Assembly: GCA_025350695.1 (NCBI GenBank)
Contig: JANXXI010000184.1
Coordinates: forward strand, 1 to 64,000
Length of the DNA stretch: 64,000 nucleotides
From: Acidobacteriota bacterium
Lineage (GTDB): Bacteria; Acidobacteriota; Terriglobia; Bryobacterales; Bryobacteraceae
Reading direction: 5' to 3'
Below are positions 19,003 through 62,907 of the stretch, one piece after another. Both the position numbers and the translations under genes were made by a program. The notes beneath the pieces were generated by a model. It was not told the origin of the DNA, did not search any database, and saw only the letters and a list, made by a program, of their open reading frames with translations. Position 1 is the stretch's first letter. Each line of letters starts with the position of its first letter.

Positions 19003-19752
19003 ATGTCAATTTTTCCCCGCTCCATTCAAAGTCTAGCCGTGATCAGTTTTCTTTCCATTTGCGCTCATGCGACGCTCGTTCAATCATTTGACTCGAACGC
19101 ACTGACTGGCTCCGGCCAAGGCCAGAGCGGACTCATGAATTCGGCTCTCTATATTCCAATTCTCCCCAGCCCTTGTACAAGCAACACTCAGATGTATGCC
19201 GAAGGCAGCTGGTCGGTTGGCCCCAACGCGAACAATTGCCACGGACTCTGGGCCCCAACCACTGCGCAATCGGGAACGGGTTCAAACTTTCTCATTGTGA
19301 ACGGAAGTGCGGTCAACAACGGTCGAATATATTCTCAAGTTGTCAATACTGGCGGCGCTAATTCAGGCACTTTCTCCGGTTACTTCACAGGGTTGTTCGT
19401 GGAACATCCGGCTAACTTAAGTATCAACGTGTACGATGGAGTCACCTCGACATTGCTTGGAACAAGATCATTTGACACGAATTTGGCTGGGGGATCCTTT
19501 CCTCCTCCCACTCCTACTCCTGCTGCTTGGGTCCTGCAATCAGTGGATTTCGCCGGTGTCACTGGCTCTTCAATTGTTTTGGAAATTTCCCTAAACAATG
19601 CTATCGCCGGTGGTAACGACTTTGGCGTCGATACGCTGGACGTTGCATTTAGGTCGGCTGGCGCTGGTGCCCCCACTCCAGAACCGGCGACCTTTTTGTT
19701 GAGTGGCGCGGCCCTCGTCGGGCTAGCTCTATTCCGCTCCGAGCGCCGTTAA
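19003..19752 (+). CDS. PEP-CTERM sorting domain protein
   Basis: 249 residues. Signal peptide (1-23, 'SFLSICAHA'), a secreted beta-rich body, and a C-terminal PEP-CTERM signal: 'PTPEPATFLLSGAALVGLAL' then 'FRSERR'. These tails are recognised by exosortase (EpsH/XrtA-type), normally in bacteria that make exopolysaccharide. No exosortase is in the window. The body shares the motif 'GGNDFGVDTLDV' and the order of conserved segments with two paralogues at 59.6-61.1 kb, so this is a small lineage-specific family of unknown function. The nearest upstream gene relic is unrelated. Confidence 0.9.
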   Translation: MSIFPRSIQSLAVISFLSICAHATLVQSFDSNALTGSGQGQSGLMNSALYIPILPSPCTSNTQMYAEGSWSVGPNANNCHGLWAPTTAQSGTGSNFLIVNGSAVNNGRIYSQVVNTGGANSGTFSGYFTGLFVEHPANLSINVYDGVTSTLLGTRSFDTNLAGGSFPPPTPTPAAWVLQSVDFAGVTGSSIVLEISLNNAIAGGNDFGVDTLDVAFRSAGAGAPTPEPATFLLSGAALVGLALFRSERR

Positions 19753-59581: not shown

Positions 59582-59590
59582 ACCAAGAAA

Positions 59591-59617
59591 AAAGCCAGAG
59601 CAGGTTGCTCTGGCTTT
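59591..59617. terminator. Bidirectional intrinsic terminator
   Basis: Perfect 12-bp stem AAAGCCAGAGCA/TGCTCTGGCTTT with the 3-base loop GGT. The minus-strand transcript ends in a TTTTTT run. The plus strand has CTTTCCTT. It sits between the convergent pncA-like and PEP-CTERM genes. Confidence 0.9.
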
Positions 59618-59644
59618 CCTTGACGCAAGTGAACAACTAAGTGG

Positions 59645-60337
59645 CTATATCCGTCGTCGTATTCCAATACCTGCCAGTAAGATCCCAGTGAGCAATAATG
59701 TGCTCGGTTCGGGTGTGGGGTTGATAATAGCCCCGCCGATATACGGAGTCACATCCAACGTATCGATGCCGAAATCATTTCCATCGGCAAACGAAGTTAT
59801 GTTGAAAACCTGCACTGTAACTGTGTTTGTAGTGGGAACGAATGCGACGGACATTTTGGCCCACAGAGGATTAGGGACCGGAGGATTGATGCTAGTGTTG
59901 AATTGAATCGTACTTAGCCGGTTGGCGTCGTCTGTACTATTTCCAGTGAATACCCGAAGTTCAAGTCCAGCGGGCGCCTGAAGATAGAGACCGGTTATGT
60001 AAGCACTGAAAACGGAAGAGGCCGAAGGGATCACGCCAGTGACTGTTTGAGTGTAAACAACACCTCCAGCGGTACTGCCGTTCACTACCATATATTTGCT
60101 TCCAGCTTGTGCCGGTATATTGGCCCAAAGTTTATGGCAGTTCGCTGCGTTGGAATCAATCGCGTAGGTACCCTCGGCGAGAAGCGAGGAAACGGGGGCA
60201 TTTACGTTACAAGCAGTCAGGGTCAGGTTGGATGTCCCTGGACTAATGCTCGTCTCAAAACTCTGAATTACAACCCCAAATAGGGTGGCTGAAGATGTAG
60301 AGACTAGAAAACAACAGGACAGGATTTTTTTGACCAT
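59645..60337 (-). CDS. PEP-CTERM sorting domain protein
   Basis: 230 residues. Signal peptide ('ILSCCFLVSTSSATLFG'), beta-rich body with 'LWANIPAQAGSKYMVVNGST', 'SVFSAYITGLYLQAPAGLEL' and 'DGNDFGIDTLDVTP', and a PEP-CTERM tail 'PTPEPSTLLLTGILLAGIGI' then 'RRRI'. The start has GAGGT 7 bases upstream. It is a paralogue of the next gene and of the protein at 19.0 kb. A long hairpin in its leader separates it from the upstream copy. Likely processed by an exosortase encoded elsewhere. Confidence 0.9.
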   Translation of the reverse strand: MVKKILSCCFLVSTSSATLFGVVIQSFETSISPGTSNLTLTACNVNAPVSSLLAEGTYAIDSNAANCHKLWANIPAQAGSKYMVVNGSTAGGVVYTQTVTGVIPSASSVFSAYITGLYLQAPAGLELRVFTGNSTDDANRLSTIQFNTSINPPVPNPLWAKMSVAFVPTTNTVTVQVFNITSFADGNDFGIDTLDVTPYIGGAIINPTPEPSTLLLTGILLAGIGIRRRI

Positions 60338-60370
60338 TTGGTGGACCTCAACTTTTTTTATTTGTTCTCA

Positions 60371-60413
60371 AGAACCCTCACTTTCGGTCGGTATTCCGAA
60401 ACGAGAGGGTTCT
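60371..60413 (-). promoter_or_regulatory. Two-tier hairpin in the leader of the downstream PEP-CTERM gene
   Basis: Outer stem AGAACCCTC/GAGGGTTCT (60371-60379 and 60405-60413) encloses an inner stem TTTCGG/CCGAAA (60382-60387 and 60396-60401). No T tract follows on the minus strand, so it is more likely an mRNA processing or stability structure between the two genes than a simple terminator. Confidence 0.55.
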
Positions 60414-60440
60414 CTGATAATGTTTTTGAACGAAAAAACC

Positions 60441-61124
60441 TTACAACTTCTTCCGTACGGCCAACGCAAGCAGTGCAACTCCCGCAAGCAGGAACGTTGC
60501 AGGCTCAGGGGTCGCGACGAGGGCCGCGCCGAACTGGGTCACGTCCAAACTATCGACGCCAAAATCATTACCGCCCGTTGAGGTGCTTGTATTGTAGATT
60601 TGAACCGTTACTTGGTTCCCTGTAGGAACAAAGGAGAGCGATTGTAGCGTCCATGTTGGGCTCGGCACGGCTGGAGGATTAACGGCACTCGTGAACTGTA
60701 TTTGCGAGGCAGGCGTTCCCAGCGAGGACGTTCCATTGTAAACGCGCAATTGGAGAACTGCCGGACCGGACGAAAACAGGCCCGCAAAATATGCGCTGAA
60801 GACGCTATTCAAGTTTGCCGTGACACTCACAGTCTGTTGGTAAACAAGGTTTCCAGTACCTGTGCTTCCATTCACAATCATGTAATTGGAGCCTGCCTGA
60901 GGGCCAACCGATGCCCATAGCGGATGACAAAGGGATGAACTACCGCCAATGGAATAAGTGCCTTCTCCAGTCAGACCGGGAACGGGGCAACCCAAAAGGG
61001 CTAAACTTGTCGACCCTGGGGCGATTGCTCCAGTTTCAAAGGTCTGAATTGGAGTTGCAAAGGAGAAGACGGAAGCGAAGGACAAAAGTAAAACGTGCGA
61101 GAGAATTGGGTGAGTCTTGATCAC
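60441..61124 (-). CDS. PEP-CTERM sorting domain protein
   Basis: About 227 residues. I prefer GTG 61124 because AAGAGG lies 8 bases before it, whereas the ORF-track GTG at 61133 overlaps that ribosome site. Signal peptide ('VLLLSFASVFSFA'), body with 'LWASVGPQAGSNYMIVNGST', 'NSVFSAYFAGLFSSGPAVLQ' and 'GGNDFGVDSLDVTQFG', and a PEP-CTERM tail 'TPEPATFLLAGVALLALAV' then 'RKKL'. Closest relative is the adjacent downstream gene. The intergenic region upstream holds a good promoter and palindromes. Confidence 0.9.
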   Translation of the reverse strand: MIKTHPILSHVLLLSFASVFSFATPIQTFETGAIAPGSTSLALLGCPVPGLTGEGTYSIGGSSSLCHPLWASVGPQAGSNYMIVNGSTGTGNLVYQQTVSVTANLNSVFSAYFAGLFSSGPAVLQLRVYNGTSSLGTPASQIQFTSAVNPPAVPSPTWTLQSLSFVPTGNQVTVQIYNTSTSTGGNDFGVDSLDVTQFGAALVATPEPATFLLAGVALLALAVRKKL

Positions 61125-61173
61125 TGCGAACACCTCTTGTTTGTTAATTTTCTTAATTTCTATTTTAGGCGTA

Positions 61174-61233
61174 GTAGTACTACAACTGTTTTACACCTAC
61201 TCAATAATCCTACATACTAGGAGTACTAGTCAA
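61174..61233 (-). promoter_or_regulatory. Promoter and palindromic operator candidate for the PEP-CTERM pair
   Basis: Minus strand: TTGACT (61233-61228), an 18-base spacer and GATTAT (61209-61204), about 80 bases from the start. Downstream lies the perfect palindrome GTAGTACTAC (61174-61183), and related AGTACT sequence also occurs in the spacer. A regulator binding these is plausible. Confidence 0.5.
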
Positions 61234-61450
61234 GAGAAAATGTGGGGTGCCTCCCTCGTTTGGAGGGAAGGATATACTTTTTGTTTTGATTCTAAAAGGG
61301 TTAGCTGTAAACTAAGAGAGTGACCTGCTAGTACCAGCATGGGCATATCGATAGTGTATTTGCACAAATCCAGATTCTTAGATGCCTTTGATTCGGGATT
61401 TCCGGTTCAAACTGATTTTTTTCGAACGGGGCTCGCTATAATCAAACAGG

Positions 61451-61476
61451 TCGCAAAGAAGCCCCCTCCTTTGCGA
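61451..61476 (-). terminator. Terminator-like hairpin after rsfS
   Basis: TCGCAAAG pairs with CTTTGCGA (61451-61458 and 61469-61476, loop of 10 bases), 35 bases past the rsfS stop. The T tract is poor, so termination efficiency is uncertain. Confidence 0.4.
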
Positions 61477-61510
61477 TGTCGTTTTATTGCCAAAGTGTCG
61501 ACGAATATCC

Positions 61511-62076: not shown

Positions 62077-62907
62077 TTGCTGACGATCCGTTTGGCCGCC
62101 ATTTTTGTGCTGACTTCCATCGCTTGCCGCGCCCAGGACTCCATTCGGGTCCGTTCCGCGGCTGAAGACTTGGAACGCGTGCGTGAATTAGTGGCTGTGG
62201 GCGCCGCCCCTCGACATCAACTCGAGTTGGCCGAAGAGAAATTGCAGGAAGCTAAGCAAGCGCAGTCGCTCGATACGCTTTTGTTTAGTCAGGTCAAAAT
62301 CGAGGAATTGACTGAGTCCCAGGCGAAAGAAATGGTGGAAGCCGCCACGGGTTTCGTGGATCGCGAAAAGCTCCGCCTTGATCAAGCCTTGAAAATGGTG
62401 GAGAACGGACTTCGTCCCAAGCATTCTCTTGAACCATTCGAAGACAATCTGACAAGGGCTAATCATACGCTGGGATTGGCGAAATCCAGAGCTTCACTAG
62501 TTCAGGAATTAGTGGCCATCGTAATGGCGGAGAAGGAAGCGGCAGAGCATCCCGCCGAGCCTGAAACACCGAAGGGCCCTAAACCAGTGTTTGAAAAATT
62601 TGACGGAAAAATGGCGTTCAGCACTGCTGAACTTAAGCAGGTTATGCTGGCATACGAGAAACGGTTTTCCTCACCTTTGCCGATCAGCGCTAGAGGGGAA
62701 ACCGCGGTACACAAAGCGCTGGGGTACGATCATCGCGGCCGAGTCGACGTCGGACTTAAACCGGACGGTGAACAAGGTCTGTGGCTGCGTCATTACCTGG
62801 AAGTAGCCAAAATCCCCTACTTTGCTTTCCGTAAGTGGGTACCCGGTCAGGCTACTGCTCCCCATATTCACATTGGTCCGCCAAGCACGCGCCTGGTGGC
62901 CGATTAG
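62077..62907 (+). CDS. Secreted coiled-coil protein with M15-like C-terminal domain
   Basis: 276 residues, TTG start with GAGG upstream. Signal peptide ('AAIFVLTSIACRAQ'). Residues about 25-150 are helical with TolC-like repeats: 'ELVAVGAAPRHQLELAEEKL' and, further on, 'DQALKMVENGLRPKHSLEPF'. After a Pro-rich linker, 'ALGYDHRGRVDVGLKPDGEQ' and 'FRKWVPGQATAPHIHIGPPS' give the His, Asp and H-x-H pattern of zinc M15 (D-Ala-D-Ala carboxypeptidase/VanY-like) folds. I infer a peptidoglycan-related or metal-binding role. It is divergent from rsfS, and hpt follows after 40 bases. Confidence 0.8.
   Translation: MLTIRLAAIFVLTSIACRAQDSIRVRSAAEDLERVRELVAVGAAPRHQLELAEEKLQEAKQAQSLDTLLFSQVKIEELTESQAKEMVEAATGFVDREKLRLDQALKMVENGLRPKHSLEPFEDNLTRANHTLGLAKSRASLVQELVAIVMAEKEAAEHPAEPETPKGPKPVFEKFDGKMAFSTAELKQVMLAYEKRFSSPLPISARGETAVHKALGYDHRGRVDVGLKPDGEQGLWLRHYLEVAKIPYFAFRKWVPGQATAPHIHIGPPSTRLVAD

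Follow-up and report, generated by a model that had tools for sequence, protein, structure and literature searches.

To our knowledge, PEP-CTERM proteins are numerous and their ectodomains mostly lack an assignment. The locus studied here, a stretch of 64,000 nucleotides from the genome of a soil acidobacterium of the Bryobacteraceae (hereafter the window), encodes three such proteins and poses the question of which fold their exported part adopts and what it may bind. Copy 1 (59,645 to 60,337, minus strand) is a protein of 230 amino acids with a predicted signal peptide, a CBM-like β-sandwich, a GND motif (DGNDFGIDTLDV) and a PEP-CTERM tail; its fold was assigned via homology to copy 2 (60,441 to 61,124, minus strand), the mature domain of which was used for structure modelling. 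Copy 3 (19,003 to 19,752, plus strand; 249 amino acids) is the most divergent of the three and adjoins a convergent ubiE-aroB pair. The frame of copy 2 can be extended to a GTG at position 61,133; the GTG at position 61,124, which sits 8 nt past an AGAGG sequence, is the more plausible start. Signal peptides were assessed by eye only.

The three proteins are clearly related to each other. Identities among them are 50% and 36%, a search of the genome with the 60.4 kb protein (copy 2) recovered the other two window copies at E values of 2e-56 and 5e-34, and an end-to-end alignment, far beyond chance, covers the LWA, MIVNGS, FSAY/GYFTGL, and GNDFGxDxLDV blocks. An earlier note on this DNA had described three homologous proteins with these common blocks, and the ORFs found in place, together with the full-length alignment, bear this description out. 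The PEP-CTERM tails that it had assigned to all three exceed the Pfam cut-off as well (PF07589; 23.7, 26.1, and 23.5 bits versus 20.7). In direct Pfam and NCBIfam scans of the window proteins, only this tail was matched convincingly and no ectodomain was named, so that the absence of a named domain holds for these scans; the CBM_4_9 model (PF02018) had no match to any of the three at E ≤ 10.

The family is larger than the three proteins from which it had been described. The same genome search brought up a further close paralogue, the fourth, on contig C157 (E 3e-42) and, more distantly, a PEP-CTERM protein on contig C244 and, on contig C6, an ORF with two domains in tandem. The larger protein on contig C6 (L006:727-2421) has its two tandem modules but no recognized PEP-CTERM tail, and a 2148-aa frame of a congeneric genome (L136, contig C47) also possesses a tandem module pair. 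It is through such relatives that a connection to a named family appears: the tandem-module protein on C6 passes the CBM_4_9 cut-off (32.2 versus 25.9 bits), as does a Bacteroidota relative (L057; 26.8 bits), while others come near and another passes MAM. The profile search that the earlier note had called for gave a divided answer. Relatives pass CBM_4_9, and CBM and lectin structures of the PDB are matched; the window proteins themselves stay below CBM_4_9 and are therefore not filed as members of that family.

To follow the module into other genomes, contigs were scanned with a profile built from the four close copies, combined with the patterns GNDFG and FSxYFxGL, and 80 of 184 confirmed stretches were kept. 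Nearly all of the kept stretches belong to Bacteroidota, and the match spans the domain, beyond the motif alone. Since the scan selected on GNDFG and FSxYFxGL, conservation of these words among its hits is partly by construction; whole-genome searches with a wider profile were thus added to obtain paralogues that had not been motif-selected. These retain a looser pattern (GNDFA, GNDLA, GNSFG), and 42 of 43 relatives, some of them not motif-selected, have the final Asp of GNDxxxD. The module occurs in 26 of 198 sampled Bacteroidota genomes as a block of about 170 amino acids within multidomain surface proteins; in the phylum of the window it is rare, with 3 of 396 genomes positive with the close profile. 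The Bacteroidota module (NGDFExGNxGF ... EGxYxV ... HTxGxGNFMIVNG ... GGNDFGLDDISF) is homologous to the window proteins over nearly the whole domain and has the same conserved blocks, but it is a part, sometimes a repeated one, of large multidomain proteins, whereas proteins of the window clade have one domain, a PEP-CTERM tail and a pair of cysteines, and read IQxFE/D where the Bacteroidota module reads NGDFE. The notion of a lineage family therefore survives in a restricted sense: six core proteins form one supported group in the tree, and this close clade was seen only in the two compared genomes of one genus, yet the domain and its motifs are widespread among bacteria. Likewise, GNDFGxDxLDV is present in the three proteins for which it had been proposed as the family motif, but its GNDF..D part belongs to a far wider module.

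Two cysteines set the clade apart. In 7 of 56 aligned modules, namely those of the six core proteins and of an acidobacterial PEP-CTERM relative (L042), the domain contains exactly two cysteines, of which one precedes the EGxY strand and the other lies within the 'CHxLW' block; the two occur together in none of the other 49. We infer that the pair probably forms a disulfide. Particular to the clade are this two-cysteine signature, the single-domain exosortase format, and a tandem gene pair that is missing at the corresponding site of the other genome.

This tandem pair, copies 1 and 2, lies in a segment (59,582 to 61,510) that separates an isochorismatase ORF from a convergent rsfS ORF. Both flanking genes are conserved in the second genome of the genus, where they stand 6 bp apart (L192:4070-4077), with no PEP-CTERM gene between them; as two genomes were compared, the tandem pair may represent either a gain in the window lineage or a loss in the other. 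Direct DNA repeats of at least 20 bp were not found within the tandem pair, which indicates that the duplication is old or diverged. The spacer between the copies (60,338 to 60,440, minus strand) folds into a long hairpin (MFE -26.6 kcal/mol, z -2.2), possibly an attenuator or terminator. It was also considered as a repeated element, and this was dismissed for want of a convincing second copy in the genome; an Rfam search of the window gave no match. Copy 3 has a positional counterpart in the same-genus genome (L050:4932-5615) that adjoins ubiE-aroB-nadB, although the tree sets this long-branched protein nearer to the C157 type. The two family members of that genome flank a third PEP-CTERM-type gene, which is small and unrelated to them (L050:4290-4772). 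Adjoining rsfS, the window also encodes a 276-aa protein (62,077 to 62,907) that has no Pfam match, carries PHIHIGPPSTRL at its C-terminus, and is conserved in the same-genus genome (L192:2672-3748).

The fold of the mature domain was predicted for copy 2 with AlphaFold2 from a 56-sequence alignment. The resulting model is confident (mean pLDDT 93.2, pTM 0.89) and consists of ten strands with essentially no other secondary structure. Foldseek comparisons with the PDB returned Stig cyclases, a porphyran-binding CBM, CBM22, CBM61, CBM16, CBM4, and gingipain cleaved-adhesin domains, all with a probability of 1.00, query TM values of about 0.45 to 0.64 and 10 to 17% identity. The model, together with these CBM matches, describes a jelly-roll of two antiparallel sheets. 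The mature domain is accordingly modelled with confidence as a jelly-roll of the CBM4/16/22 type, and the fold prediction that the earlier note had asked for points to a known CBM-type β-sandwich; judged by this model, the lineage did not invent the domain, which has a known fold in variant form. The jelly-roll is common to CBM_4_9 and to the CBM4, CBM16, CBM22, and CBM61 structures, a group within which a structural Ca2+ is conserved; unlike these, the window proteins come without a glycoside hydrolase and without a direct CBM_4_9 match, and they possess the GND motif. The top matches have TM values of about 0.6 at 10 to 13% identity, and the fold therefore does not fix the function.

A more specific lead came from sequence profiles, which matched the PDB entries 8xmz (E 4e-4) and 6yf6 (E 9e-4 with the wide profile, GNDF falling on GNDF). 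The latter, absent among the 50 Foldseek matches listed, belongs to the publication on the Enterobacter cloacae fucose lectin EclA (PMC11875179). Ile214, Ile215, Lys217, Tyr218, Ser269, Met270, Gly271, Asp273, and Arg275, which are named in that paper for the C-terminal domain, can all be placed on the 6yf6 chain with one and the same offset, 139. The GND of the motif GGNDFGVDSLDV in the last strand of copy 2 (60,540 to 60,575, minus strand) is thereby aligned with Gly271-Asn272-Asp273 of the C-terminal EclA domain (EclA-C), that is, with its Ca2+/fucose site. In EclA-C, Gly271 and Asp273 coordinate the fucose-bearing Ca2+ and are within hydrogen-bonding distance of the fucose 4-OH; the Ca2+ binds the fucose cis-diol, and its removal has a drastic effect on ligand binding (PMC11875179).

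For the comparison with EclA-C, we took five of its relatives from genomes of Pseudomonadota and built a profile with them. These relatives (L186-L190) reside in frames of 330 to 932 aa, and two of the three genomes possess two copies each; a search of plasmids for EclA-C relatives gave no match. With this profile, hhalign reported 97.1% for the wide profile and 96.5% for the window-genome clade alone, whereas controls made by reversal or by column shuffling (10 shuffles) did not exceed 0.6%. When the GND segment was left out, the values were 84% and 51%, respectively. The profile homology covers the second half of the domain, GND included, whereas its N-terminal half is not alignable to EclA-C. 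Within the aligned part, the FSAYFTGL block falls on the stretch that contains the sugar pocket of EclA. The alignment starts after the VNG block, and ungapped extrapolation would put the Ca2+ ligands Ile180-Thr181 within one to three residues of VNG; its leftward extension with a hybrid query halted at chain residue 49. EclA-C is likewise a β-sandwich whose GND triplet precedes the last strand at the aligned position, but it is fused to a LecA domain, has neither a PEP-CTERM tail nor the last-strand Asp170, and differs in its pocket side chains, whose residues are not conserved as identities in the window clade. Conserved candidate Ca2+ ligands of the clade are E/D9, D166, and D170 (numbering of the modelled 178-residue domain); position 9 is Glu or Asp in all six members, and the invariant residues cluster on the last strand. 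The guess that the Asp/Asn-rich motif could bind calcium is supported by the position of GND on the Ca2+/fucose site of EclA, and related β-sandwiches have a conserved Ca2+ too (PMC9063808).

What such a calcium ion would do is where the readings part. Judged from sequence and model, the domain would best be read as a Ca2+-dependent glycan binder, and of the two solved relatives closest in sequence, one has a ligand-binding Ca2+ site that coincides with the aligned GND triplet. This coincidence, and the fact that CBM cousins bind sugar, weighs against a scaffold or protein-binding matrix adhesin, in which the calcium would be purely structural and GND kept for folding, with fold and sorting unchanged. 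Such a scaffold is nevertheless a serious possibility, albeit at less than even probability: the conserved Ca2+ of β-sandwich CBMs has been tied to stability (PMC9063808), gingipain cleaved-adhesin domains are among the fold matches, and the last strand, on which the invariant residues are concentrated, is also a folding element. We consider a catalytic β-sandwich very improbable. The Stig cyclases FamC1, FilC, and FisC, which are enzymes, are Ca2+-dependent CBM-like β-sandwiches, share their calcium site with β-sandwich CBMs (PMC9063808) and account for the four best Foldseek matches; however, the window domains are only about 10 to 13% identical to them, very many relatives are modules of large surface proteins in Bacteroidota, a setting that fits binding rather than the cyclization of small molecules, and the window genes adjoin isochorismatase, rsfS, and ubiE-aroB, with no biosynthetic neighbours. 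A new lineage-restricted domain without kinship to known folds, to which the restriction of direct Pfam and NCBIfam matches to the tail might have pointed, is scarcely credible in view of the confident known-fold model, the sequence-profile matches to CBMs and a lectin in the PDB, and the relatives passing CBM_4_9.

The partner exosortase that the earlier note had proposed to look for has a candidate. The genome contains one exosortase (L174:8087-9617, contig C215) with EpsI adjacent; it scores 240.9 bits with PF09721 and 196.5 bits with TIGR02602 (cut-off 105.55), and none of the subtype cut-offs was reached in comparisons with the subtype models. Jointly, the exosortase and EpsI look like a split XrtD. 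Its neighbourhood was considered as an exopolysaccharide locus and set aside, the usual genes being absent among those scanned over 12 kb near the contig end. Genome-wide, PEP-CTERM is matched 33 times, in 32 cases above the cut-off; together with the exosortase and EpsI, these matches indicate that the sorting machinery is present in this genome. In this respect the system resembles PepA of a floc-forming bacterium (PMC9850573) and the EpsH system (PMC1569441), where a signal peptide is likewise combined with a PEP-CTERM tail, the genome encodes an exosortase and many PEP-CTERM proteins, and the ectodomain is barely homologous to named domains. It differs from them in that no sigma-54 signature stands upstream of the PEP-CTERM genes checked: none was found in 27 upstream regions of PEP-CTERM-type ORFs (a few of these ORFs being spurious or mis-started), and matches across the window to the sigma-54 promoter of proteobacterial PEP-CTERM genes did not exceed chance. 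Common upstream words among the PEP-CTERM genes revealed nothing notable.

We slightly favor the view that the window proteins are secreted, single-domain CBM-like coat proteins that are sorted by the exosortase and bind Ca2+ and glycan. They would be exported by the Sec system through the N-terminal signal peptide; the PEP-CTERM tail, as in the known system, would be held in the inner membrane and then cut by the single exosortase of the genome, so that the protein would reach the cell surface or the extracellular matrix. Ca2+ may be bound at the GND triplet before the last strand, beside the VNG turn, at the position aligned with the EclA-C site. A possible second, structural site of the CBM type could involve the N-terminal F-E/D and the last-strand Asp170, a site not present in EclA-C. 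The calcium site and the FSAYFTGL block would bind a glycan, most likely the exopolysaccharide of the cell itself or a soil polysaccharide, and the proteins would thus act as matrix-binding coat lectins. More tentatively, and with some doubt on our part, the VNG turn, FSAYFTGL, and GNDF might together hold a sugar through a bridging Ca2+, as EclA-C does, in which case the module would represent a broad, unmodelled family of calcium-dependent lectins that appears in multidomain proteins of Bacteroidota and as disulfide-bearing PEP-CTERM units in the coat of an acidobacterial genus.

With these data, a PEP-CTERM ectodomain can be assigned a fold and a likely metal site, and sugar binding by it becomes a hypothesis that can be tested. 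The module is present in about one-eighth of the sampled Bacteroidota genomes, and we found no dedicated Pfam or NCBIfam model for it. If the Ca2+/sugar site proves true, exosortase-sorted proteins of this kind would be lectins that tie cells to their own polysaccharide matrix.
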